Positions 90 to 37,897 of a stretch of 37,897 nucleotides of DNA are shown here, in pieces. The notes under the pieces were generated by a model. The model worked only from the letters and a program-made list of their open reading frames with translations, had not been told where the DNA came from and made no database searches. The DNA lies in the IMG/VR virus record IMGVR_UViG_3300047356_000273, positions 1 through 37,897 of that record; one strand, written 5' to 3'. The translations under genes and the position numbers were made by a program. Position 1 is the first letter of the stretch; each line of letters opens with the position of its first letter. Source of the DNA: a virus.

Positions 90-99
90 AGTCAAAAGA

Positions 100-117
100 T
101 TTGTCAGTGATTTGTCA
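100..117. repeat. Paired TTTGTCA repeat, RNA polymerase-proximal copy
   Basis: TTTGTCA at 100-106 and 111-117, one helical turn apart, lying 11 bases upstream of the RNA polymerase start codon. The same arrangement with one difference occurs at 337-354. Confidence 0.7.
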
Positions 118-234
118 CCTAGGCAAATAAAAAGTAAGAGACAAAACGGATAACAGTTTGTTTAAAAATGCTTAATTATCAATAGGGTTACAGCAATAGG
201 AGACAAAAAAGACATGTTGTATCCCATGAGGAGT

Positions 235-262
235 ATCGTAACTTTTTTTGCAACGGTGTCAA
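235..262 (-). promoter_or_regulatory. Possible sigma70-like promoter upstream of RNA polymerase
   Basis: On the minus strand there is a perfect TTGACA (complement of 257-262), a 16-base spacer containing an A7 run, and TACGAT (complement of 235-240). It points toward the RNA polymerase start at base 89 (= 37897), about 145 bases downstream. A host-type promoter for the phage polymerase would fit T7 biology. The -10 box matches only four of six positions. Confidence 0.35.
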
Positions 263-336
263 CTTATTGATTTTCAACAACCTTTTCATTTTATTGTCAC
301 CTAGCACTTGCCTTTGTTTTAGCTGTTTTGACAAAC

Positions 337-354
337 TTTGTCAGCGATTTGTCA
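337..354. repeat. Paired TTTGTCA repeat, distal copy
   Basis: TTTGTCA at 337-343 and 348-354, the same 11-base phasing as at 100-117. The first heptamer is also half of a TGACAAA/TTTGTCA palindrome at 329-343. The repeat overlaps the stop codon of the 66-residue ORF. Confidence 0.7.
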
Positions 355-541
355 CCCATTTATCTTTATCCATCCTTATAAACTGCTCTAAGTGGTGCAG
401 GTCTTCGGAGTAGATAGGGTTATCCGAGTGTATTGAGGTGAATCCAGCGAATCGCTTGAAGGGGTCAGCGCGAAAAGCAACAGCGACGTTGCATCGTTCC
501 CCTTGCTCGTTGTCCATTTCGAGTGTGTGGGTATATTTCAT
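341..541 (-). CDS. Hypothetical early protein (66 aa)
   Basis: Sixty-six codons following an A/C-rich leader ending in ACACCT before the ATG, the leader style of this early block. It lies 9 bases downstream of the 58-codon ORF and is the last gene before the RNA polymerase control region. No domain, membrane segment or signal was recognised; residues near the C-terminus are rich in Asp, His and Lys. It is called coding because of its leader, its packing in the operon, and the absence of a competing frame. Confidence 0.6.
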   Translation of the reverse strand: MKYTHTLEMDNEQGERCNVAVAFRADPFKRFAGFTSIHSDNPIYSEDLHHLEQFIRMDKDKWVTNR

Positions 542-550
542 AGGTGTTTA

Positions 551-727
551 TTATTGGTCGGGAGAATAGTCATCGACGGGAGTTAGCTTTGCTTTGAGCT
601 CGGCTATGTCCTCCTCCATCTTTTTAATGAGAAGCTCCTGTGCTTCACAAGCTTTGGTCATAGCGTTTAAGCCACTTGTGAGCAGTTGTGTTTCTGTAGG
701 TTTGAATAGTGTTGGTGCTGATTTCAT
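551..727 (-). CDS. Hypothetical early protein (58 aa), predicted coiled coil
   Basis: ATG at 725-727, tandem stops at 551-553 and 548-550, giving 58 residues. The C-terminal half (about residues 24-47) is rich in Glu, Lys, Leu and Ile with heptad-like spacing, suggesting a short amphipathic helix or coiled coil. It sits between the integrase (54 bases upstream) and the 66-residue ORF. The intervening leader contains the CAAACCGC motif (752-759). Function unknown. Confidence 0.6.
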   Translation of the reverse strand: MKSAPTLFKPTETQLLTSGLNAMTKACEAQELLIKKMEEDIAELKAKLTPVDDYSPDQ

Positions 728-751
728 AAGTATTGGTAGGTGCTGCCACAG

Positions 752-759
752 GCGGTTTG
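752..759 (-). promoter_or_regulatory. CAAACCGC early-leader motif (first of ten copies)
   Basis: One of ten copies of CAAACCGC (read on the minus strand) between 752 and 4306. Intergenic copies are at 752-759, 2357-2364, 2583-2590, 3254-3261, 3449-3456, 3972-3979 and 4299-4306; copies inside coding sequence are at 2101-2108, 2113-2120 and 2641-2648. The intergenic copies lie in the short leaders between the stop of one early ORF and the start of the next. None was noticed in the replication or virion genes. Confidence 0.65.
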
Positions 760-781
760 CTTGTGACAGCTTAATTGATTG

Positions 782-1804
782 TTAGTGTATGTGAGATTGT
801 TGAAGAGCGTTGCGCGCGTCAAGCATATTGGTGGGAGTAAGCTTTGCGTACCTCAAGGTCATCTCAAAGTTACGGTGACCCATCCACTCCTTGACTATCT
901 GAAGGGGAACATTGCGTTGCACTAACCTCGACGCGCATGTGTGCCTTGTAAGATAGAACACAAACTCCTTGTCGGCTGTCTCGTTGAGGGCTTCCCGTAT
1001 GAACCTCCAAGCTGTTGCTATCCTAGACTCGGTGAACCTAGCAAATGGGAACTGTTCATCCGATAAAGCAACGTAAGCCTTGTAAGCCCTGTCGGTAAGC
1101 CAGATGGTGCGCGGGTAGTTGTTCTTGGTCTTGCTCAAGTCTACCAGCCATCCGTGTTGTGGGTCTTCCCTTACGGCGGTTTGTGATATGTGGCGAGCTT
1201 CGATAGGACGCATACCTGTGTCTATTTGCCACTCAAAGAACCTCGCGAAGTCATCCTTACCAGATGCCTCTAAGGTGTCTATGATTTCATACTCCTCCTC
1301 CTCGGTAAGGAACCTCATGCGTCCGTTAGATAGCTTCTTCTGCTCTATCTTAGGCTTGTGCGTGAGGAACCCACGATCTACCCCAAAGGTAAGTATCCTA
1401 GACAGGCAAGACAGGCGGCGGTTTATTGTGGCCTTAGCCAGCCCTTTCTTCTCCAATGCAAAGATGAAGGTATCGACTGCTCCAACATCTAACTGGGAGA
1501 CATCGTAGCCTTCCCCGAAGTGTTCAATAACAATCTTTACATTAGATCGTTGGGAGCGCTCGTTGGCGGTTCCCTCCCAGTAACGAACCATTGTCTTGTC
1601 TGCTAGTTCTCCTAGCGTGATGAAGTCACCAGTGCCTTCTAAGAGCTCCGTGTAGGGTATCCCTAGGCGTATCCTCTTTTTAAGCTCTGACTCCCAAGCT
1701 GCCGCTTCCTCGTAGGTAGGCCATTGGCGGCGGTATCTTACACCTTTGACCATGAAGTCTGCCATGAACTTGTTTTCGTTTTTACCACTCTTTCTAATAC
1801 TCAT
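782..1804 (-). CDS. int: Tyrosine recombinase (phage integrase)
   Basis: Site-specific recombinase expected to integrate the phage between attP and a host attB. From the chosen ATG (1804) it is 340 residues. The N-terminal part resembles an AP2-like arm-binding region (about 1-55), followed by a SAM-like core-binding domain (about 60-165) and the catalytic domain. Visible catalytic residues: Arg199 in DTGMRP, a Lys in the SKTKNN turn, Arg287-His288 in YLTRHTCASR, His310 in WMGHRN and the nucleophile Tyr319 in LRYAKL. The first His of the usual HxxR box appears to be Tyr284. The frame is open further upstream, but the start at 1804 follows the CA-rich leader typical of this phage. Integrases upstream of the RNA polymerase are known in marine T7-like phages. 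Confidence 0.93.
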   Translation of the reverse strand: MSIRKSGKNENKFMADFMVKGVRYRRQWPTYEEAAAWESELKKRIRLGIPYTELLEGTGDFITLGELADKTMVRYWEGTANERSQRSNVKIVIEHFGEGYDVSQLDVGAVDTFIFALEKKGLAKATINRRLSCLSRILTFGVDRGFLTHKPKIEQKKLSNGRMRFLTEEEEYEIIDTLEASGKDDFARFFEWQIDTGMRPIEARHISQTAVREDPQHGWLVDLSKTKNNYPRTIWLTDRAYKAYVALSDEQFPFARFTESRIATAWRFIREALNETADKEFVFYLTRHTCASRLVQRNVPLQIVKEWMGHRNFEMTLRYAKLTPTNMLDARNALQQSHIH

Positions 1805-1950
1805 TATTAAGTCTTTCCGTGTGTGTGTTATTTCTAGTTTAAGACATTTAATCCTTTTTGTGAATCCTCCCTTTAGATATTCAAAGAATCGAATCTGTGA
1901 ATAAGTTTCTAACTGGTATCTATTCAATATATTTCAAAAGCGACGTTACG

Positions 1951-2172
1951 TTATAGCGTATCAAAACACCCGACTCGTTGATGAGATACGTGCGGCGGTT
2001 TCTTTACTCCCCGTCTATCCCAGAAAGCCTTCCAAGCTTCATCGACCATCTTTATGGTTTCTTGGCGGTATTCTCTGTCTATAGCGGCTACAGTTTTGTC
2101 GCGGTTTGTTACGCGGTTTGCGTTGTATAGATTGCGGTATTCTTTAGGGCGTGCGTGTAGTGGTGTTAGCAT
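1951..2172 (-). CDS. Hypothetical early protein (73 aa), basic
   Basis: Seventy-three residues, Arg/Lys-rich, unlike the acidic proteins around it. The middle carries the pattern TVAAIDREYRQETIKMVDEA, which looks helical. A 146-base AT-rich gap separates it from the integrase start. Two CAAACCGC copies fall within its coding sequence (2101-2120). No family recognised; a small DNA-binding or host-interacting protein is possible but not shown. Confidence 0.6.
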   Translation of the reverse strand: MLTPLHARPKEYRNLYNANRVTNRDKTVAAIDREYRQETIKMVDEAWKAFWDRRGVKKPPHVSHQRVGCFDTL

Positions 2173-2181
2173 GGTATTTAT

Positions 2182-2355
2182 TTATTTGGTGGTTAGTTTA
2201 CGTGCGTATTGAATGAGTGAATAAGTAACGTCTGGTGGCAAGTCTAATTGACTCGTGGCGTATCTTACGGCGGCTTCTGGTGTTCCCTGATGGGAAGCCA
2301 GCATGTTGTTTATTAGTATGCGTGCGAGGTTAAGGCGCTCGGTGATGTCTTGCAT
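2182..2355 (-). CDS. Hypothetical early protein (57 aa)
   Basis: ATG at 2353-2355, stop at 2182-2184, 57 residues, predicted mostly helical (for example LNLARILINNMLASHQG near residues 8-24). The start codon is one base after a CAAACCGC motif (2357-2364), with the previous gene ending at 2369. The stop is followed after 9 bases by the next start (2172). Function unknown. Confidence 0.6.
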   Translation of the reverse strand: MQDITERLNLARILINNMLASHQGTPEAAVRYATSQLDLPPDVTYSLIQYARKLTTK

Positions 2356-2368
2356 AGCGGTTTGTTAG

Positions 2369-2566
2369 TTAATCTTCCTCGCTCACTAGGCAGTTCTGCC
2401 ACCATTCAACAAACTTACTGTCTAAGTCTTTTTTGTCGAGGTTGTGGTGCGTGTAGAAAGTATCTATGATCTGGTAGGCTTCTGATATTTCTATGTGTCC
2501 TGCTAAGACCTCATAAACATCAGCACCGTATTGCTTACATTTATCTTCTATTTCTTGTTCGTTCAT
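2369..2566 (-). CDS. Hypothetical early protein (65 aa), acidic
   Basis: Sixty-five residues with a clear excess of Asp/Glu and an acidic end (VSEED). Its leader (2567-2594) carries the CAAACCGC motif at 2583-2590. No domain recognised. Position and composition match the pool of small host-modifying early proteins seen in T7-like phages (inference). Confidence 0.62.
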   Translation of the reverse strand: MNEQEIEDKCKQYGADVYEVLAGHIEISEAYQIIDTFYTHHNLDKKDLDSKFVEWWQNCLVSEED

Positions 2567-2594
2567 AGGTGGTAGCGCTGTGGCGGTTTGTTTG

Positions 2595-2777
2595 TTAGCT
2601 TGTGTGATTAGATGAAACTACTAGGTCGTGCACCTTTTCGGCGGTTTGCAAGCGGTGCTTAGCGGTCTCATATGTGAGCCCCTTTGCAACAGCATAGGAG
2701 CCGACGCTCTGGTAGTTCAACAGGTAATCGAGGTGATACGCTTGGAAGCGCTTTAGTGTGGTGGCTTGTTTGTCCAT
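2595..2777 (-). CDS. Hypothetical early protein (60 aa), possible helix-turn-helix
   Basis: The frame is open to 2849, but the start at 2777 is preferred because it follows the CA-rich leader seen before its neighbours and avoids overlapping the next gene. Sixty residues. Residues about 21-45 (QSVGSYAVAKGLTYETAKHR) look like a small helix-turn-helix of the kind that recognises DNA, as in sigma-like or transposase HTH segments. If so, this is one of the few early DNA-binding candidates; weakly supported. Confidence 0.55.
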   Translation of the reverse strand: MDKQATTLKRFQAYHLDYLLNYQSVGSYAVAKGLTYETAKHRLQTAEKVHDLVVSSNHTS

Positions 2778-2800
2778 AGTAGTGAGCGTGTAGTGGTTCC

Positions 2801-3004
2801 TTATCCCTCGTATTGAATAACATCCGTGTTGCATTGTGTGACAATACATCCCTTTTCCTCGAGATAATCCCAGACTTCATCAAAATGATCCAAGAATAAT
2901 TCGTGATCTGTGGAGGGTTTAAATTCTGGGGTAGCCTTTATGAACTTGTCATAAGCTCCCCAATCGCAGTTATCATTGTCGTTGATATATGTGTGTATTT
3001 TCAT
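2801..3004 (-). CDS. Hypothetical early protein (67 aa), acidic
   Basis: Sixty-seven residues, rich in Asp and aromatic residues, with DHFDEVWDYLEEKG near the middle. The leader is CACACACTACACACG immediately before the ATG. It follows the 73-residue ORF by 18 bases. No similarity recognised. Confidence 0.62.
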   Translation of the reverse strand: MKIHTYINDNDNCDWGAYDKFIKATPEFKPSTDHELFLDHFDEVWDYLEEKGCIVTQCNTDVIQYEG

Positions 3005-3022
3005 CGTGTGTAGTGTGTGTGG

Positions 3023-3244
3023 TTAGATGTAGCGGCTAAGAACCTCATATTCTTCTGCGGTTACTTCATTTAAGCTGTATAACTCCGCTTGTTGCTCCCA
3101 TTCATCTCCGCCAATATCGAAGGCTTCAATGACTTCCTTTTCTGCTGTTTTAATATCAGAAGAACGGAAGCAGTAGTTTGTGAGTGTTTCGTATTCTCCG
3201 TTGCGGATTGTTACTGTGGAGATGTAGTGTTTTTGTGTGTTCAT
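3023..3244 (-). CDS. Hypothetical early protein (73 aa), acidic
   Basis: Seventy-three residues beginning MNTQKHYISTVTIRNGEYE, a beta-like start followed by a helical, Glu-rich stretch (about 31-55). The N-terminal MNTQ is shared with the 84-residue ORF at 3687-3941 and resembles the 49-residue ORF (MNTH), hinting at duplication of start regions. The leader contains the CAAACCGC motif (3254-3261). Function unknown. Confidence 0.65.
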   Translation of the reverse strand: MNTQKHYISTVTIRNGEYETLTNYCFRSSDIKTAEKEVIEAFDIGGDEWEQQAELYSLNEVTAEEYEVLSRYI

Positions 3245-3268
3245 AGGTTTGCGGCGGTTTGTGTGTGG

Positions 3269-3418
3269 TTATAGGTTATCTGCAATGATGGTTACAATTA
3301 GCAGTATTGATGCGATTGTGATACAAGAGAACATAATAAAGGCGCTCTCTGTTTGGCTGTCTGTCTTGACTAGTTTAGTGGGCGCGCTGATGCGCTTAGT
3401 GTGTTTGTGTGTGTTCAT
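3269..3418 (-). CDS. Hypothetical small membrane protein (49 aa)
   Basis: ATG at 3416-3418, stop at 3269-3271. The first 27 residues are polar and basic (MNTHKHTKR), followed by one hydrophobic segment (about residues 28-46, FIMFSCITIASILLIVTII) consistent with a single transmembrane helix with the N-terminus in the cytoplasm. A 6-bp hairpin ends 2 bases before the start codon. An early membrane protein could serve in superinfection exclusion, but nothing shows this directly. Confidence 0.55.
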   Translation of the reverse strand: MNTHKHTKRISAPTKLVKTDSQTESAFIMFSCITIASILLIVTIIADNL

Positions 3419-3419
3419 A

Positions 3420-3435
3420 GTAAGGTCGGCCTTAC
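3420..3435 (-). promoter_or_regulatory. Hairpin abutting a start codon
   Basis: On the minus strand GTAAGG-CCGA-CCTTAC forms a 6-bp stem with a 4-base loop, ending one base before the ATG at 3418. A second, overlapping pairing GGCC/GGCC lies just upstream. Such a structure in the initiation region could limit translation of the 49-residue membrane protein. Confidence 0.5.
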
Positions 3436-3475
3436 GGCCTAGGGTGCGGCGGTTTGCCTGTGTGGTTGTGTGTTA

Positions 3476-3646
3476 TTAGTTGTTAATGTGGGTGATAGTA
3501 ATGCTAGCAATGACGCTATTTAGATCATCGCGATGTTTACAGAGAGTGTCATACAACTTCATATCGCCATCGCATATTTCTGCTAACATGATTTGCAGAT
3601 TGAGTAGGTCTCTGGAGGACATGAGTGAGTCGATTAGGTTTTGCAT
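3476..3646 (-). CDS. Hypothetical early protein (56 aa)
   Basis: The frame is open to 3709, but the ATG at 3646 follows ACACAACACACACACTATT, the phage's typical early leader, and gives no overlap with the preceding gene. Fifty-six residues, predicted helical (about residues 2-45), ending in a threonine/isoleucine-rich strand. No family recognised. Confidence 0.6.
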   Translation of the reverse strand: MQNLIDSLMSSRDLLNLQIMLAEICDGDMKLYDTLCKHRDDLNSVIASITITHINN

Positions 3647-3686
3647 AATAGTGTGTGTGTTGTGTGTAGGTGTGTTGTGTGGTTGA

Positions 3687-3941
3687 TTAGAATAGGCGAG
3701 TTGTAACAAGGTCGCACTTGTTGTCCTGTCCTCTGTTGAGTTCGCGCATGCGCTCTTCTGCTAAATCCATAGCGTCGATAATATCAAAGCCGTCATCATC
3801 AGAGAATTGCACCTCAATGTAAGACTGCTCAAATCCTTCTTGCCATCCAACGAAGTGAGAACCGATTACGTTCTCTTCATCGAAAGCTTCGACAGTTGAT
3901 AGTGTGTTATTGCGGAGGTCTGTTGTGTTTTGTGTGTTCAT
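3687..3941 (-). CDS. Hypothetical early protein (84 aa), strongly acidic
   Basis: Eighty-four residues with many Asp/Glu, including SDDDGFDIIDAMDLAEE near residues 47-63. The leader includes the CAAACCGC motif (3972-3979). Acidic early phage proteins of this size are often inhibitors that mimic DNA (for example Ocr in T7, known from the family), but no homology to such proteins was recognised here. Confidence 0.65.
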   Translation of the reverse strand: MNTQNTTDLRNNTLSTVEAFDEENVIGSHFVGWQEGFEQSYIEVQFSDDDGFDIIDAMDLAEERMRELNRGQDNKCDLVTTRLF

Positions 3942-3995
3942 AGTGTGGTTGCGCTGTCGCGCTCTGTGTGTGGCGGTTTGCCTGTTGGTGGTTAG

Positions 3996-4274
3996 TTATT
4001 TGCTTTCGCGGCGATTTTTAAGGAAAAGGATAGCGGGAATGAATGCCAGCCCTATAAGGCAACCGAGCGCTGTACCATTTGCCATGCCCAGATTGCCCGC
4101 TACGGCGCCGCCTAGCCAGTCACTAGTGGCATTACCTAGCCCAGCTCCTACGACCACGCCTAGCCCCTTCTGGAAGGCTTTAGGTAAGTAGTTCTCTACC
4201 TCGATGCCAGTCATGGCGCCGATGATCATTACTAGGTTGTCGATGATGCCGAAGATTATATATTCAAGTGTCAT
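3996..4274 (-). CDS. Putative membrane protein with glycine-rich helices (92 aa)
   Basis: Ninety-two residues with at least two hydrophobic segments: residues about 5-22 (YIIFGIIDNLVMIIGAM) and about 69-85 (GTALGCLIGLAFIPAILF), separated by a glycine-rich amphipathic region (about 35-65, many GxxxG-like spacings). The C-terminus KNRRESK is basic and probably cytoplasmic. Similar compact proteins occur in marine phages and bacteria without assigned function. An early membrane protein might take part in superinfection exclusion (inference). Confidence 0.65.
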   Translation of the reverse strand: MTLEYIIFGIIDNLVMIIGAMTGIEVENYLPKAFQKGLGVVVGAGLGNATSDWLGGAVAGNLGMANGTALGCLIGLAFIPAILFLKNRRESK

Positions 4275-4309
4275 AATAGTGTGGTTTGTGTGTTGTGTGC
4301 GGTTTGCTA

Positions 4310-4663
4310 TTAGTAATCGGAAATGAGTATGCCACCTTCAAAGCTGATTAGAGCGTGGTTTTCCTCAAGAAACTCAGTAAGGATGTCGCGAACCTTGGCG
4401 GTGTCGTTGAGATCAACGTCCTCAAGCAACCATTCGAGCTGATCGTCGTCCTTGTGTAGGCAGTCTGCCCAATCTTCAATGCTTTTGAACTCTGTGAACT
4501 CGCAACGTAGGGCGATGACGTCGAGTTCTAGCTCTATTCCGCAGTCATCCTCGATTTGCTCTAAATGTTCGGCCAAAGCTAAGGCACCCGACCAGCTGTA
4601 ACCTGCGAGTTCGTCCTTAACAAGTGTGCTGGCAATTTCATTTGTAGTGAGTGTAGTTTTCAT
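4310..4663 (-). CDS. Hypothetical early protein (117 aa), very acidic
   Basis: The largest uncharacterised early protein: 117 residues with about 30 Asp/Glu against 7 Lys/Arg. The central part (about 23-54) follows the pattern ALALAEHLEQIEDDCG...ELDVIALRCEFTEF, which I recognise as resembling uncharacterised phage and bacterial proteins, but I cannot name the family. Its composition is compatible with a DNA-mimicking inhibitor of restriction or of a host DNA-binding protein (inference). The leader is a long CA repeat before the ATG. Confidence 0.7.
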   Translation of the reverse strand: MKTTLTTNEIASTLVKDELAGYSWSGALALAEHLEQIEDDCGIELELDVIALRCEFTEFKSIEDWADCLHKDDDQLEWLLEDVDLNDTAKVRDILTEFLEENHALISFEGGILISDY

Positions 4664-4692
4664 AGTGTGTAGTGTGTGTGTGTTATTTGTGG

Positions 4693-4938
4693 TTAGTATT
4701 TGAAGGGAGTGTTGTCGGGCTGTTCAACCTTTAGACGGTCGATAGCATCAGCGATGGCTTCTTGCCTCCACTCAGTGACGTTCTCGCCGTAGCTTGTGAG
4801 TTGACTAACAGACTCGCCGTCGTTGAAGCTCCAACCGTAATTGGCTGTGACTTCGATCATTGAAAAATCTCTATCATCGATAGCCGTGCAGTTAAGGCTA
4901 TTAGCTAGGCGCTTGAGTTCTAGTAGTCTGCTTTTCAT
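4693..4938 (-). CDS. Hypothetical early protein (81 aa)
   Basis: Eighty-one residues, acidic, ending in DNTPFKY. The ATG follows AATAACACACACA, the same leader as the 91-residue neighbour. Contains a helical N-terminus (MKSRLLELKRLANSL) and a mixed middle. Function unknown. Confidence 0.65.
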   Translation of the reverse strand: MKSRLLELKRLANSLNCTAIDDRDFSMIEVTANYGWSFNDGESVSQLTSYGENVTEWRQEAIADAIDRLKVEQPDNTPFKY

Positions 4939-4983
4939 TGTGTGTGTTATTAGTGGTTAGTATTGTTGGAGGTTTGCTATTGA

Positions 4984-5259
4984 TTATTGAAGGAAGCAAA
5001 GAGCGGCTACTGCTTGATCCTCTGTGAACCCAAGCCCTGTCAATTCGTCTACAGACTTGTAGTTGCGGTTTTCGACGTAGTCCCAGCATCCGAGGTCTTC
5101 AGGAACCTCGTAGTAAGCTTTGAATTGTTCCTCGTCTATCTCAGTGCCAATTTGGCAATACATCCGATAGTGATCACCGAGGATTTCTAGAACGTCTGAG
5201 GTGAGCTCGGAGACGTTAAGGGTTTCTCTGAGTGTTTGAAGTGTGTCTGAATCGATCAT
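4984..5259 (-). CDS. Hypothetical early protein (91 aa), first gene of the early block
   Basis: Open to 5310, but the ATG at 5259 follows AATAACACACACA and matches the downstream genes, so 91 residues are preferred. The C-terminal part (about 66-88, VDELTGLGFTEDQAVAALCFL) resembles a UBA-like or other three-helix motif with the LGF/A-A-L pattern. Acidic overall. As the first early gene it would be transcribed soonest after entry. Confidence 0.62.
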   Translation of the reverse strand: MIDSDTLQTLRETLNVSELTSDVLEILGDHYRMYCQIGTEIDEEQFKAYYEVPEDLGCWDYVENRNYKSVDELTGLGFTEDQAVAALCFLQ

Positions 5260-5327
5260 TGTGTGTGTTATTTGTGTGGTTAATTTGTTGGTGAATTGAT
5301 TAGAAGACAATCAGAGGTTGTACCCCC

Positions 5328-5345
5328 ATGCAAGCTTTTTTGCAT
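5328..5345. repeat. Inverted repeat ATGCAA/TTGCAT
   Basis: ATGCAA (5328-5333) and TTGCAT (5340-5345) flank a 6-base loop, about 70 bases upstream of the first early gene. It could form a hairpin or be an operator. Confidence 0.5.
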
Positions 5346-5563
5346 AAATAATTGAAATAAATACATGGAAAGCTCGGAACCCGCTTGTTTACTGGGCTAG
5401 AAGCCGAAAGTTTTTTTGAGAAACACCACAAAAACACGCCTTTTAGGTAATAAATGGTCGTGCTAACGAGCACTCATAGTAGAAACTTTAAGTGTTCTTG
5501 TGGTGCACTTGTAGTGTCCTGTTAGCAGTCACGCCAGTGTTGCCGCGTGTCCTATGAGTAGAT

Positions 5564-5575
5564 GTTCGGCCGAAC
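5564..5575. promoter_or_regulatory. Perfect palindrome GTTCGGCCGAAC
   Basis: Twelve-base perfect palindrome within the repeat-rich early control region, between the first and second iteron copies. Such sites often bind dimeric repressors; no binding protein can be named. Confidence 0.5.
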
Positions 5576-5831
5576 GTGATGAGTGTCTTGTGAGAGGACG
5601 CGGAACAAGTCCGACGTGTGTCCTATGAGTGAGCATTGAGTGTCCTATGAGTGTCCTATGAGTGAGAACGCAAAAACACGCCATCTGCCAAAGACAGACG
5701 AACACCCAGAGGCGCCTCGAAACACACTCATTTACCAGCAAAATGGATTATATATCCTTCGCATGTCCATAGTAGCAAAGGCATGCCCCCCATGCGCTGA
5801 CAAAACGCTGACAGCAGACGCACAATCCCGA

Positions 5832-5852
5832 CCCCATTGGGGGGAATTTTTT
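5832..5852 (+). terminator. Weak terminator-like hairpin on the plus strand
   Basis: CCCC-ATT-GGGG followed by GGAA and a run of six T (5847-5852). The orientation is opposite to all genes, so it might stop antisense transcription, or be a replication or packaging structure. The stem is only four pairs. Confidence 0.25.
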
Positions 5853-6120
5853 CGCGGCTATATACGTATACCCCCTCAGATTTTTATACCAAAACAAAGA
5901 GAGCACTCATAGGACACTCAGGGGGAGCAGTTTTTACCATCATCTTAGGTCTTGAGTCTTGCTCAGGATACTCAACACATTCATAGAACACTCTGAGAGC
6001 CTCTAGAAAGCCTTTGTGTGCTCCACAAGGGTGTTACCATACGTAAAGACGCCCAGAGGCTTTTAAGGGTCACTCTGAGCGTCAACACACACACACAAAC
6101 AAACGTAACACACATATACG

Positions 6121-6375
6121 TTATAAAAAGTCTTCGTCGATGTCCTCGTCATCATCATCATCCACTTCTACCCACTCAAAGTCATCCTCGGACAACTGGA
6201 AGGTGTTCATAAAGGCATCGTGGTATTTCATGGACTCTATTAGGAGACCTGTAGTGGCAAAGGGGTCACTAGATGCCATATCAAAGGAGTGAGGGGCGTC
6301 CTCTGGCTGAACAATAAGAACATAGTTCCTGTAGTGCTCTCCGAGGAGTGCTTGGGCTTGTTCTAGAGGGGTCAT
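6121..6375 (-). CDS. Hypothetical protein with acidic tail (84 aa)
   Basis: Eighty-four residues, starting MTPLEQAQALLGEHYRNYV and containing SDPFATTGLL; I recognise this pattern from uncharacterised small proteins of marine T7-like phages. The last 15 residues are almost all Asp/Glu. It overlaps the stop of the 36-residue ORF in an ATGA junction, so the two are translationally linked. It is the last gene before the non-coding region. Function unknown. Confidence 0.75.
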   Translation of the reverse strand: MTPLEQAQALLGEHYRNYVLIVQPEDAPHSFDMASSDPFATTGLLIESMKYHDAFMNTFQLSEDDFEWVEVDDDDDEDIDEDFL

Positions 6376-6482
6376 TTCTTGGGTTTCTTAGGTATAGGCT
6401 TTTTGCTCCAGTCAATATCATCGTAGTTCTTACGCTGCTTGGCTGGGTTATGTCCTTTTCTTGGTTGGCATCCTTTTCCCAT
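6372..6482 (-). CDS. Small basic protein (36 aa)
   Basis: ATG at 6480-6482, stop overlapping the next start as ATGA (6372-6375). Thirty-six residues, MGKGCQPRKGHNPAKQRKNY followed by a DxDW motif and a Lys/Pro-rich tail. The MGKG-PR...YDxIDWSKK pattern recurs in tiny phage proteins of unknown role. Tight coupling to both neighbours supports it as a real gene. Confidence 0.65.
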   Translation of the reverse strand: MGKGCQPRKGHNPAKQRKNYDDIDWSKKPIPKKPKK

Positions 6483-6483
6483 A

Positions 6484-6678
6484 TTATAGATAAGAAGCTT
6501 TAAGGTGATTTATAAGTTCAAGGAGAATACCTCTGTGGTCACTAAGGGTGTCCTCGTGGATCGTTAGAACCTCTGCAAGTGTTTCGATGTTGTCCTCTGA
6601 AGCTCTAAGGGCCTTATGAAGCAGCACTAGTGACCCTGAGGTGACTAAGATATAAATTATTAGTAATGTGTGCTTCAT
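6484..6678 (-). CDS. Small membrane-anchored protein (64 aa)
   Basis: Residues 1-20 (MKHTLLIIYILVTSGSLVLL) form one hydrophobic segment, followed by a polar, Glu/His-rich helical region with heptad-like leucines. This could be a membrane-anchored coiled-coil protein, for example lysis-related or an additional i-spanin-like protein, but no partner lipoprotein overlaps it. It is the first gene after the terminase and the AT-rich gap. Confidence 0.6.
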   Translation of the reverse strand: MKHTLLIIYILVTSGSLVLLHKALRASEDNIETLAEVLTIHEDTLSDHRGILLELINHLKASYL

Positions 6679-6990
6679 TTATAGGGAATACTGGTTGGTA
6701 GTTATCACCTGTCAATACTTTACAGTGCTTTTAAAGGAACACTCTTATTCCAACATAAGGGACACTTTAAGGGAGGAACCTATTACCAGTACCTACTTAA
6801 TCACTCTTTTTCAAAGGATCACTAAGTGTTTCCTAGTAGGGACTATTTTAAGGTTTGTTCTTAATAGTAGTCAAGTTTATAAAAATATATTTCTTATTTG
6901 TTCTAATACCCTCTTCCCTTCTACCTATACTGTAGTCTCCTTAATTATTGTTGATTATCAAGGACTTATAGAACCACTTAAAAGGCTTTG
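6679..6990. other. AT-rich spacer after the large terminase, with short repeats
   Basis: 312 bases without a supported gene. It carries several related motifs such as CTTTTAAAGGAACACT (6728-6743), ACACTTTAAGGG (6764-6773 region), AAAGGATCACT (near 6813), ATTTTAAGG (near 6846) and CTTAAAAGG (near 6978); the same CTTTAAGG core recurs near 6498 and 6061. T7 has comparable short repeats beside its terminal repeats, so this spacer may be part of the concatemer junction (inference). Confidence 0.45.
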
Positions 6991-8655
6991 TTACCAAGTA
7001 AGAGTGTTACCTCCACCTTTGTTCTTATAGTAGGCATCTTGGAAGCTCTGTAGCTCCTTATCAAGCATCTCTACCTTCCTCTCAGCCATCTTTACTTCAG
7101 CATCTTGAGCCATTTGTTCTGTCCAATAGGCAACAGCCATAGACAAGGCATCAAGCCTGTCATCGTGGGTAATAGCTCCTCGGTCTCTTGTTAGTCGAGA
7201 CATCTGGTAGAACAGGGAGTATTTTAGTTGGGACTCGTGGGGATACTTCTGGATAGTCTTAAAGTCATCTTTGACCACATCGGGGTCTATAACAAGCCTG
7301 TGACCCGCCATGACGGGCTCTAGGGTGTCTATGATACGTTTTTCCTTCTGGGTGCTATGTCTGACCTCCTCAATACTCACAGGATAGATACGACTTAACA
7401 CAGGCTTTAGAACCTCATTGAACAACCCGTCACCAAAGTTACTCTCGGTAACGATGTAGTTCACCTTGTATTTCTTAGCTATCTCAGCGAGTTCCTCTAG
7501 GGTTTCCTCGGAGTAACCACCTGACAAACCACCAGCAGCAGGGACGTATAGAGTGCCGTTGAGCATCTTACAGACCGCATAGCCTGTTTCATCCTTACCT
7601 CTACCAGAGGGGTCAATAGAGAGCACACTACCAGTGTAAGGAACCATCTCTCCGAGTGTCTTAAAGGGTCGGTAATATCTCTCCCCTGCAAAGGCCACAT
7701 TGGGAACACTAGAGTCCCACTCAAGCTGAGGGTCTCTAGCCCACACGTAGCGCTCAGGGGCTACCTCGTTGTCAATGGATGTTACTATCAGGTCACTAAT
7801 CTTCAGAGGGAACTTCTCAACATCAGACAGCTTACTATCCAGCATGAACTGCATGGTATATCCAGCAGACCCATAACTGATCTTACGTTCCGCTAGGTCG
7901 ATGTCAGAGAACCGTAATGGCTCTGTAGACTTGTTCTCCATCTCTGGGTCTACACAGATGTCTGCAACACATCCTTCATAAATCTTTTCGTTGTGGCTTT
8001 GTGTGATGTAACTAGCGGGCCAAATCTTACTCTTATAGCCGCGTTCTTGGAGTTTTGTATAAATACTGTCAAAGGTCTGAGGTGTTCCTAGAAAGAGGAT
8101 TTTACAGGTATCGTCAGGTTTAAGGATAGCGTCGAACTCTTTTACTTGTTCCGATAGCTTCTCCCTCATGAGCATCGTAGCACTATTGTTGGCTACCTCG
8201 ATGTCATCCGCTACAATTATGTCCGCACGAGAACCTGTAAGTTGCGATGAGATACCTAGGGACTTCACTGAGGGAGCGTGAGAGGCTGGCGCTGGGCCAA
8301 CATCAAAGCTGATCTTAGATTGTCTCTGGTTGTCCTTAGGGCGCAAGTGGTGAAGTATCTCCATCTCGTTAATGAGACGAAGCGTGAAAGTAGAGAAGTC
8401 ATCACTACGGGTCTTACTAGCAGACACCACAAGGATGTTTAACGAGGGGTCTAAGAGTAACTGGTGAACCACATAAGCGGAACAAATCCAGCTCTTACCA
8501 CAACCACGAAACGCTTGCACAATGGCACGCCTATCCCCGTTCTGCATGTAATCCGCTATGTTGTATTGAAGCGGAGTAGGGTCAGGGAGGTTAAGCTGTT
8601 TCCAGCATAGAAATAGGAAGTTCTTAAAGTCTCTTAGCTGTGGGGGTACTTCCAT
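6991..8655 (-). CDS. terL: Terminase large subunit (DNA maturase B, gp19-like)
   Basis: Motor and nuclease that packages concatemeric DNA into the prohead through the portal. 554 residues (T7 gp19: 586). The ATPase domain shows a Walker A-type AFRGCGKSW with Lys54 and Walker B IIVADDIEV near residue 155. The nuclease domain begins around LSIDPSGRGKDETGYAV (about residue 346) with a C-terminal acidic cluster THDDRLDALSMAV (about 500). It follows the HNH ORF by 5 bases. Start at 8655 gives MEVPPQLRDFKNFL, the expected N-terminus of this family. Confidence 0.96.
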   Translation of the reverse strand: MEVPPQLRDFKNFLFLCWKQLNLPDPTPLQYNIADYMQNGDRRAIVQAFRGCGKSWICSAYVVHQLLLDPSLNILVVSASKTRSDDFSTFTLRLINEMEILHHLRPKDNQRQSKISFDVGPAPASHAPSVKSLGISSQLTGSRADIIVADDIEVANNSATMLMREKLSEQVKEFDAILKPDDTCKILFLGTPQTFDSIYTKLQERGYKSKIWPASYITQSHNEKIYEGCVADICVDPEMENKSTEPLRFSDIDLAERKISYGSAGYTMQFMLDSKLSDVEKFPLKISDLIVTSIDNEVAPERYVWARDPQLEWDSSVPNVAFAGERYYRPFKTLGEMVPYTGSVLSIDPSGRGKDETGYAVCKMLNGTLYVPAAGGLSGGYSEETLEELAEIAKKYKVNYIVTESNFGDGLFNEVLKPVLSRIYPVSIEEVRHSTQKEKRIIDTLEPVMAGHRLVIDPDVVKDDFKTIQKYPHESQLKYSLFYQMSRLTRDRGAITHDDRLDALSMAVAYWTEQMAQDAEVKMAERKVEMLDKELQSFQDAYYKNKGGGNTLTW

Positions 8656-35476: not shown

Positions 35477-37897
35477 TTAGCTGAAGAAATACGTGCTATC
35501 TTTGATTTTGGAGATGTCAGCAGTTCCATATTCTGGAGGCTCTGGAAGTTCTAATCCCGATTGCTGTTCTAGTTGATGTTTCCAATCTTTAAGGAGGTCA
35601 ACGCTAAACATAGAAATGAATACATCTCTCAAACTTTTACTCAGAGCTTCGCACCCTGTAGCGTGTGTTCCATAGCTGTCGTGGATAAATGCAAAGTCAT
35701 AGATTCCTTCTTCCTCGTTGGCTTTGATGATTGTTTTATGGAGAGCCGCAGCATCTAGTGAGTGAACAAAGTTAGGGGACACTCCGTTGCGCTGGCGAAC
35801 CTTGGATAGCTTATCGTCGTTCTCACGGAAACGAATGTGAGTAGCTGTTCCGCTAATCCAAGTCTTGATGTTCTTACTTGTGAAGTTGAAATACTCTTGG
35901 TGAACAGGGAAGCCACTGGGTGTAACCCAAGTAACAGGAAGCTCAGCATCGGTAAGCAAAGCAGCACAGTCTTGGAACCACTTCATACATTCCTTGGGCT
36001 TCTCTAAGACACTCTCAATACCCTTCCAGACTGCTTTGGCTAGAACGTGAACAGCCAGATACTTCTCCTTCTCATCAAAGGGTCTCGTGCGTCCTTCTCC
36101 GTGTATCTGGTCTTCATACCAGTCAGCTATATACAAGCGGTTGCTGTATTCAGTGAGCCCATAAGAGTAACACATAACAGGGCGCTTGGTTGTCTTACGG
36201 TCTATCCCAAAGGTTACCCAAGCATTAGAGATAGCATCACCTTCTTCTGCTTGTTTCTTGAGGATGATCTCCGCTTGTTTTGCAACGACCCCGTAGATGT
36301 CTGCTGGGGAGTCCGTAGGTAGGACATTCGTAGCAGTCATCCCGTAGGGGTCACGGGTAAGCATAGAGAGAATCTGAAGGCCGTTATTGGTGGCATCCAT
36401 ATTCACTGGGAGAAAGGTATCTAGCTTACCCGTGTTCTGTAGTGTGGCCCATTCAAAGCACCACGCAAGGAATTGCCAAGGGTCACCCGCTTCTGTCCAT
36501 AATAACTCCTTGGTAGGGTTAGCAGCGATACGGATAGCGTCCTTGGAAAAGTTCTCAGCCCACTCAGCACGTTGGTCGAGTGTGACTTTATCGTAGCCCC
36601 AAGTGTTAGCGCCTTGAATGGCTAACCACTTACGGTCTGTTGCTGTCTTAATACGTTGAGGTCTAGCAAACCGAAGTAAACCACGGCACATGTCAGGGCC
36701 TTGGATACCTAGGAAGGCAGGGATGTTATATACACGACCTCGGAAGTCACAGTGTGACGGATAGAAGAACCGACTACCTGTAAGCTTCTCTGCTAGGTAA
36801 AGCACCTTAGCGACCAGTAGGCGTCTTGAGCGCGTGCTCATGTTGCGCTTGTGGACACCTGAAGCCATCGTGCGCCACTGAAGGTTTACTATCTTGTTTT
36901 CGTGGAAGTCATCGGGGATGTCAGGCATCACCTCATCGTCACGGCTAGGTAGTCCTCCTACCTTTACTGAGTTCTTCCAAGCCCACTGCATGGTCTGGAG
37001 AACGTCCTCGTTAATCTTCCAAGGTGTTTGCTGGATAAGGTTACAAGCCTCCATAGGCTCGTCTAGTTTACCTTCAATACCCCGAAGGAACTCCATGTTG
37101 GTGGTCTTGATAAATGGAAGCTTAGGCAGCGATGTATCTTCAAGACGGTAGCCACCTTCCCAGACGTTTTTCCACTCCATTGGTGTGTCCACTGTAGGTA
37201 ACCAGAAAGGGCTTATGATTTCCTTGTGATAGTTAAACTCATCAATCCACTTGAGGGTCTCTGCTGAGGCTGTGACGTAGCGTGTTGGGTTTCTACGGCC
37301 TGTGTCTGTGATGAACCGATACTCAATGATCCCCGTGACATCCCTGAGGAGTTCTACAAGGTTGATACCTGTTGTGGCTACATCTCTACGAGTCCACGAG
37401 TGTGGCTCCTCCATCAGACCCTTCTCTACCTCGTGCTTGGTGCTGACTCGGATGTGGTTCTTGGTAGCTTGCCATCCACTCTTACGGGTAGCCCCTAGAA
37501 CAATCCCTTCACCCTTTGGGTTGTTACGAACAAGGAACTCGGAGCGGCGCTGATAGTCGATGACGTTGCCCACCTTGGTGCACATGGCGGTCATCTTGGA
37601 GTTCTGTGTAAGCTGGTCTAGGACGGTGCGGATAACAAGAAACCCAATCTTCTCTGAAGGGATTTCTAAGAGGTCTATCTGCCACCGACCTTTGTTCTTA
37701 ATTAGACGCCACTTTTCTTTCACCTCATCGATGGCCTTGATATATGAAGGAAGCGCCCCACGTATCAGTCTCTGACCATAAGACGTCTCAGATTCCATAC
37801 CACGAGCGCGGGCTCCCTCTACCTTGTTACGGTAGCGACCCACGCCTACGGTGGTCATATCGTGGTTGAGTTCGTCTTGTGTGAGTTGTGTGTCCAT
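35477..37897 (-). CDS. Single-subunit DNA-dependent RNA polymerase (T7-like, gp1)
   Basis: 806 residues (T7: 883), complete once the circle is closed; its ATG is at 37897 (= 89). Catalytic residues align with T7: Asp501 in VNMDATNNGLQILSMLTRD (motif A), Lys571 and Tyr579 in RKTTKRPVMCYSYG (motif B), Asp740 in HDSYGTH (motif C). The C-terminus ends YFFS. It transcribes the middle and late genes from phage-specific promoters. The start follows the paired TTTGTCA repeats directly, so its expression may be controlled there. Confidence 0.97.
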   Translation of the reverse strand: MDTQLTQDELNHDMTTVGVGRYRNKVEGARARGMESETSYGQRLIRGALPSYIKAIDEVKEKWRLIKNKGRWQIDLLEIPSEKIGFLVIRTVLDQLTQNSKMTAMCTKVGNVIDYQRRSEFLVRNNPKGEGIVLGATRKSGWQATKNHIRVSTKHEVEKGLMEEPHSWTRRDVATTGINLVELLRDVTGIIEYRFITDTGRRNPTRYVTASAETLKWIDEFNYHKEIISPFWLPTVDTPMEWKNVWEGGYRLEDTSLPKLPFIKTTNMEFLRGIEGKLDEPMEACNLIQQTPWKINEDVLQTMQWAWKNSVKVGGLPSRDDEVMPDIPDDFHENKIVNLQWRTMASGVHKRNMSTRSRRLLVAKVLYLAEKLTGSRFFYPSHCDFRGRVYNIPAFLGIQGPDMCRGLLRFARPQRIKTATDRKWLAIQGANTWGYDKVTLDQRAEWAENFSKDAIRIAANPTKELLWTEAGDPWQFLAWCFEWATLQNTGKLDTFLPVNMDATNNGLQILSMLTRDPYGMTATNVLPTDSPADIYGVVAKQAEIILKKQAEEGDAISNAWVTFGIDRKTTKRPVMCYSYGLTEYSNRLYIADWYEDQIHGEGRTRPFDEKEKYLAVHVLAKAVWKGIESVLEKPKECMKWFQDCAALLTDAELPVTWVTPSGFPVHQEYFNFTSKNIKTWISGTATHIRFRENDDKLSKVRQRNGVSPNFVHSLDAAALHKTIIKANEEEGIYDFAFIHDSYGTHATGCEALSKSLRDVFISMFSVDLLKDWKHQLEQQSGLELPEPPEYGTADISKIKDSTYFFS
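37809..37897. repeat. Terminal redundancy, right copy
   Basis: Exact copy of bases 1-89, reading into the start codon of the RNA polymerase gene on the minus strand. Removing one copy gives a circle of about 37,808 bases in which the sequence upstream of the RNA polymerase is the 90-340 gap. Confidence 0.9.

Follow-up and report, generated by a model that had tools for sequence, protein, structure and literature searches.

The window analysed here, that is the whole stretch of 37,897 nucleotides of the IMG/VR virus record IMGVR_UViG_3300047356_000273, is the contig of a marine T7-like (Autographivirales) phage, complete by appearance and with its genes on the minus strand, in which a short word, AAACCGC(C), always faces the way of transcription and is confined to the early region, where it occurs both between and inside genes. 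This early region (approximately 90..5310, minus strand) comprises a string of small open reading frames (ORFs) and an integrase gene, and lies upstream of the gene for the phage RNA polymerase. The manner in which the word is kept in some relatives and lost in others suggests that it is the word itself that is being preserved, at the nucleotide level, and a control factor probably binds there. As to the nature of this control, AAACCGC(C) is tentatively regarded as a transcription-polar recognition site distributed over the early integrase-containing region, for which a stoperator-like roadblock appears as the most likely role.

In the window, CAAACCGC is found in 11 exact copies, every one of them on the minus strand and between 752 and 4306 (left coordinates 752, 1176, 2101, 2113, 2357, 2583, 2641, 3254, 3449, 3973 and 4299), against a mean of 0.61 and a maximum of 3 copies after dinucleotide shuffling. 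The original prediction, made from the sequence alone, had counted ten such copies; the clustering and the orientation stand but the number does not, the copy at 1176 in the integrase gene having been missed and the one given at 3972 lying at 3973. Its seven copies in stop-to-start gaps, in a single orientation, are recovered as seven leader copies, all on the minus strand, the remaining four being inside ORFs (2641; 2113 and 2101; 1176), and its statement that replication and virion genes are free of copies agrees with the absence of CAAACCGC outside 752-4306 in the window. Even with the composition of the leaders modelled, the seven leader copies compare with 0.04-0.15 expected; AC-repeat 8-mers such as ACACACAC are as frequent in leaders but are simple repeats. 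Considering the core AAACCGC(C), the window holds 14 sense copies, evenly divided between leaders and ORFs (seven each) and occurring in all three reading frames, so that the description of the motif as sitting mostly in gene leaders has to be abandoned, half of the core copies being inside ORFs. AAACCGC has no antisense copy in the early region and no sense copy in the remaining 32.6 kb, and an equal frequency in late genes, which would have spoken against an early element, is not what is observed.

From the highest coordinate downwards, and all on the minus strand, the weakest member is AAACCGC followed by A, a match to the core 7-mer only, inside a 91-amino acid (aa) ORF at 4984-5259 (5065..5071). 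It is followed by CAAACCGC then A in the leader of a 92-aa ORF (4299..4306), by CAAACCGCC in the leaders of an 84-aa ORF (3972..3980, then a hairpin GCGC-GACA-GCGC), of a 49-aa ORF (3448..3456, then a hairpin GGCC-GTAA-GGCC) and of a 73-aa ORF at 3023-3244 (3253..3261), and by CAAACCGCC inside a 60-aa ORF encoding a protein like a helix-turn-helix (HTH) protein (2640..2648, ORF at 2595-2777). The leader of a 65-aa ORF carries CAAACCGCC at the left junction of a gene gain or loss (2582..2590) and that of a 57-aa ORF carries CAAACCGC at the right junction of the same 65-aa ORF gain or loss (2357..2364). Three copies lie inside a second 73-aa ORF at 1951-2172, namely CAAACCGC at 2113..2120, CAAACCGC at 2101..2108, invariant in five motif-bearing phages and synonymously broken in the relatives L004 and L005, and AAACCGCC at 1994..2001, also invariant in five motif-bearing phages and synonymously broken in L004. 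Inside the integrase gene are AAACCGCC at 1417..1424 and CAAACCGCC at 1175..1183 (alignment codons 210-212), the latter again invariant in five motif-bearing phages and synonymously broken in L004 and L005. Finally, CAAACCGCC at 751..759 occupies the loop of a 9-bp hairpin in the leader of a 58-aa ORF (551-727).

Relatives were found through integrase and through RNA polymerase searches, and six phages (the window, L003, L006, L009, L011 and L106) were pooled, amounting to 22.7 kb of early region and 69 kb elsewhere. In this set, AAACCGC is present in 68 sense and 0 antisense copies in the early regions, against 0 sense and 3 antisense copies elsewhere, and AAACCGCC is the most enriched core, with 57 copies for 1.2 expected. 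Counting the word with one mismatch over the genome and its relatives, a check suggested in the original prediction, gave few variants, single-base variants of the word being nearly absent from the pooled phages. Besides, another relative, L008, packs 14 core copies inside 2.0 kb. Regarding coding sequences, a synonymous shuffle preserving both protein sequence and codon usage returned far fewer copies of AAACCGCC than the genomes contain, i.e. 0.48 against 4 in the window, 0.47 against 7 in L003, 0.70 against 9 in L006 and 0.65 against 9 in L011; in general, fully covered motif-bearing phages have 4-9 coding copies each where 0.4-0.8 would be obtained by shuffling, which is an excess of about tenfold, in all three frames.

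The conservation of these coding copies points to selection on the word. At the DNA level the integrase genes of L106 and the window share only 59% identity, yet CAAACCGCC at integrase codons 210-212 is unchanged in the window, L003, L006, L009 and L106; across these five phages, 2.4% of the 8-nucleotide windows of the integrase gene are invariant and the motif is one of the eight invariant runs, and in the 73-aa gene at 1951-2172 the word accounts for two of the four invariant runs. Between L006 and L011, 7 of 8 coding copies are kept against a 7-mer background of 19% (P = 0.0001), between L006 and L106 3 of 4 against 9.5% (P = 0.003), and between L006 and L003 5 of 5 against 37% (P = 0.007); between L006 and the window, 4 of 9 are kept against 28.5%, which is not significant. 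The refined word was picked on data that included the test set, so these P values have to be read accordingly, the effects being large. The reverse situation is encountered in L004 and L005, which are close to L006 (the L004 integrase gene is 92.5% identical to it in DNA), retain the same genes and lack the word throughout the early region, their leaders being devoid of the motif. L004 keeps 0 of 9 coding copies against a background of 52% (P = 0.0015), six of the nine having been changed synonymously. A loss of the motif in close relatives that keep the genes had been named in the original prediction as an argument against a control element, and such a loss does occur; because the coding copies were also lost, and mostly synonymously, it points rather to a function of the word itself than to chance. 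The pattern of conservation and loss with genes kept also implies that coding copies arose and vanished through substitutions, and not because a repeat was inserted or deleted. The proposal of a dedicated early-gene control element is supported by the restriction of the word to the early region, its single direction and its maintenance at synonymous sites.

A second word of the same kind exists in a sister clade, consisting of Ayaqvirus S45C18 (AP013544) together with about a dozen contigs of IMG/VR, whose RNA polymerase is about 41% identical to that of the window. Copies of this word, (A)TCGTTGGG(C), gather within and close to the integrase gene just upstream of the RNA polymerase gene, in the sense direction only; ATCGTTGGGC appears in 41 distinct sense contexts, many of them orthologous, and in 0 antisense ones, and coding copies of TCGTTGGG number 5-6 against 0.1-0.3 expected. 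In a control scan of 61 cellular loci, three fell below E = 1e-5, and a lone weak cluster would consequently mean little, whereas the better-covered contigs of the clade of the window reached 1e-9 to 1e-26. No strong word was detected in CRP-227, CRP-114, CRP-804, CRP-171, HTVC119P, HTVC200P, HTVC019P, LUZ100, Lo5R7ANS or S28C10, and most of these ten phages (nine named isolates and S28C10) possess an annotated MarR-type regulator. Such a regulator was not found among the early ORFs of the window, and in S45C18 a 103-aa ORF located between the integrase and polymerase genes gives a weak winged-helix match. Clade-specific words fit a divergence of the recognising factor. As an observation apart, several early genes of the Pelagibacter phage HTVC019P (L151), at 1027-2370, are preceded by another repeated leader, AATCAACAATCAAC.

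Two explanations fit best and sequence cannot separate them, namely a stoperator-like roadblock and an early-mRNA binding or processing site. In the former, AAACCGC(C) would be a short asymmetric site present in many same-facing copies over the region that precedes the phage RNA polymerase gene, and it would be recognised along the sense of transcription by a sequence-specific trans-acting factor; a repressor, or some comparable protein, would sit on these sites and hinder the host RNA polymerase moving toward the phage polymerase gene, and the effects of the many copies would add up to slow early and lytic expression. Protein binding, DNA rather than RNA as substrate, and an effect on transcription are what we infer from the sequence. 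Stoperators of Cluster A mycobacteriophages are likewise oriented one way with transcription and differ between phages (PMC6550527). Because the word is clade-specific and totally lost in one lineage, the factor may have changed in specificity or in presence. The 60-aa early protein encoded at 2595..2777 (minus strand), for which a three-helix, HTH-like structure is predicted (mean predicted local distance difference test, pLDDT, 83), is no more than a candidate; the model of the 73-aa protein is of low confidence. Several points weigh against the roadblock. None of the early ORFs tested matched a repressor family, the Foldseek matches of the 60-aa model are mostly HTH folds with all E > 1 and none significant, and differences in the recognition helix of this protein do not track the loss of the motif. 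In addition, a repressor site of only 8 bp would be a short one, classical stoperators being 13-14 bp long and mainly intergenic, unlike the word considered here, and none of the copies coincides with a recognised promoter, promoter-like sites showing no excess (10 against 8.4 expected). No replacement word was seen in L004 and L005 when looked for, and the pooled genomes are related, which makes their counts not independent, although leader copies do sit in different contexts.

In the second explanation, which is judged rather unlikely, an RNA-binding protein, an endoribonuclease or a small RNA, of phage or host origin, would read AAACCGCC in early mRNA and set its stability or translation, in a role analogous to that of T4 RegB on early mRNAs. 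A strict 8-nucleotide word confined to the sense strand of the early region, in leaders and in all coding frames, is what such a site would look like, but the copies share no common structure, being in a hairpin loop at 752, unpaired at 4299 and on the side of a stem in the L003-type leader; avoidance of the word in late genes, expected if it harms mRNA, does not go beyond a non-significant trend in the window, and GGCGGTTT, which a co-transcribed phage pairing RNA would need, is absent from the sense strand of the window. The readings of the word as a Chi-like site, a signal for the phage RNA polymerase or a cassette linker are less likely. A Chi-like function is improbable: GGCGGTTT, on the bottom strand, would be met by the host RecBCD or AddAB entering from the left early end, and would protect the genome or boost recombination. 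This would agree with a strict, asymmetric octamer of one orientation, independent of frame and near the inferred left end, the left terminal repeat of LUZ100 sitting just before its early genes; phages lacking RecBCD inhibitors are enriched in Chi (PMC3784561) and known Chi words are G-rich, one-way and of 5-8 nucleotides (PMC5959072). The clade of the window would fit this logic, which would not allow the sister clade, as the G-rich strand of the latter is the opposite one (ATCGTTGGGC being on the sense strand); besides, complete loss in L004 and L005 is not predicted, and GGCGGTTT shows no marked enrichment in the seven bacterial genomes checked, which may not include the host.

It is very improbable that the word makes the RNA polymerase of the phage itself pause or terminate, in the manner of the T7 class II signals, excluding this polymerase from the early region. 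Those T7 signals are short and asymmetric, and the present word is polar, hairpin-free and clade-specific, but the RNA polymerase of L004, with 0 copies, is 98% identical to that of L008, with 14 core copies. One of the readings proposed initially, a leader or translation element enhancing initiation without Shine-Dalgarno (SD) sequence, now appears scarcely credible. Early genes do start without SD (0/15), from AC-rich leaders with C-T before the ATG, and seven copies are in leaders; late genes have an SD at 1 of 28 starts and A-rich leaders. The word has no purine-rich stretch able to pair with the usual 3' tail of 16S rRNA, its leader copies stand at a variable 9-39 nucleotides from the ATG, which leaves no positional link to start codons, half of the copies are inside genes, and the same genes in L004 and L005 are served by wordless leaders; the SD-less, AC-rich character is common to leaders with and without the word. 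There is rather more, albeit still quite improbable as an explanation of the whole, in the word as a cassette linker, i.e. a shared leader patch for the gain, loss or swap of small early genes by short homology, with copy number as a by-product. L007 and L008 are 99-100% identical on either side of one extra gene, whose two boundaries lie at AAACCGCC, two copies enclose the 65-aa ORF of the window at the place of a single one in L002 and L010, and leader modules are swapped between orthologous genes, the hairpin leaders GGCCGTAAGGCC and GCGCGACAGCGC preceding different genes in different phages. Ends of similarity blocks fall at most 30 nucleotides from a copy in 16 of 27 cases against 8.8 expected within leaders (P = 0.006, the pairs not being independent), but such blocks naturally run through a shared word. 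Copies in the integrase gene and other ORFs kept at synonymous sites, as well as the sister-clade words inside the integrase gene, are left unexplained, and a linker is already insufficient as a full explanation; a word acting as leader or cassette linker only was dropped after the coding-site tests. The frequent gain and loss of genes at motif copies is a secondary feature.

Other recurrent elements were noticed around these small genes. The module AACAAGTTTGCGGACCTTT(C/A)AAACCGCCTTTAA recurs before unrelated small genes (L003 1-1500, L099 and L006-L008), and a long family of internally repetitive MKKLSETYKELGIAFSFPI ORFs is found downstream of the early genes in L099 (reverse complement, about 2900-6750).

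Regarding the genome layout, an 89-bp direct repeat joins the ends of the contig, positions 1-89 being duplicated at 37809-37897; the contig appears to be a complete assembly, circularly permuted, with both ends lying in the first part of the gene for the phage single-subunit RNA polymerase (35477..37897, minus strand). The terminase gene is at 6991-8655 (minus strand), and the tyrosine integrase gene (782..1804, minus strand, 340 aa, PHROG integrase) lies in the downstream part of the motif cluster. Judging from the integrase only, the phage is possibly temperate. Scanning GTDB genomes with this integrase for the host gave best matches of 34% identity and no close prophage, and the host was not found; likewise, the early region showed no DNA similarity to known phages, and tRNA and Rfam searches of the window gave no match. 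Upstream of the integrase gene, a conserved block with inverted-repeat character (TTGAATATCTAAAGGGAGGATTCACAA, 1840-1925) is an attP candidate. Upstream of the RNA polymerase gene, 19-bp direct repeats GTGACAAATCRCTGACAAA at 100-118 and 337-355 flank a promoter-like TTGACA-16-TACGAT (235-262), a layout that recalls the operators suggested to mediate MarR control in temperate T7-like phages. Three copies of ACTCATAGGACAC and four of TCATAGGACAC lie a short way upstream of the early region (about 5547-5663), possibly near the physical end of the genome. The Escherichia coli Chi word GCTGGTGG, with 8 copies, is among the commonest sense 8-mers outside the early region; these copies probably come from repeats in one long ORF.

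For the silencing of the RNA polymerase gene in integrase-bearing T7-like phages, the authors who described LUZ100 proposed MarR control, without obtaining stable lysogens (PMC10134795). AAACCGC(C) gives a concrete handle on this question, as a strict, one-way and clade-specific word whose copies are spread over precisely the stretch that precedes the RNA polymerase gene and are embedded in coding sequence by synonymous choice. Such a word predicts a recognising factor, which could be fished with an 8-bp bait, and an L004/L005 lineage unresponsive to it. It is possible, if doubtful at this stage, that the clade-specific one-way words (AAACCGCC here, ATCGTTGGGC in the Ayaqvirus relatives) of integrase-bearing T7-like marine phages without recognisable MarR-type regulator represent a previously undescribed polar control system guarding the phage RNA polymerase gene, lineage-specific in the way of immunity specificity.

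Among the known systems, the MarR-type lysogeny control proposed for temperate T7-like phages such as LUZ100 has the same genome position, with early genes, regulator, integrase and then RNA polymerase (PMC10134795), but no MarR gene was found among the early ORFs of the window. The PeSL cassettes of T4-type phages, as summarised in PMC4503421, also involve small early genes that are shuffled among relatives and separated by leader or hairpin modules that recur; PeSLs carry an early promoter and a stem-loop, whereas here there is no promoter excess and only some leaders have hairpins. Chi sites in phage genomes are strict, polar octamers under selection that occur inside genes as well (PMC3784561), unlike the present word in that the latter is confined to one region of 2-4 kb and that its G-rich strand differs between two clades. 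The start-associated sequences (SAS) and extended SAS (ESAS) of Cluster K mycobacteriophages are short, asymmetric, one-way repeats of unknown function restricted to non-structural genes (PMC3203893); they are 13 bp long with an SD core and lie 3-7 bp before starts, where the word has no SD core, stands 9-39 nucleotides away and is found inside genes in half of the cases. The stoperators of Cluster A mycobacteriophages differ by their length of 13-14 bp, their genome-wide distribution mainly in short intergenic spaces and their known repressor, as compared with 8 bp, the early region only and half of the copies in ORFs; they nevertheless share with the word, as in L5 and TipsytheTRex, many asymmetric sites along transcription, a motif varying between relatives and a presumably temperate context (PMC6550527, PMC9283540).

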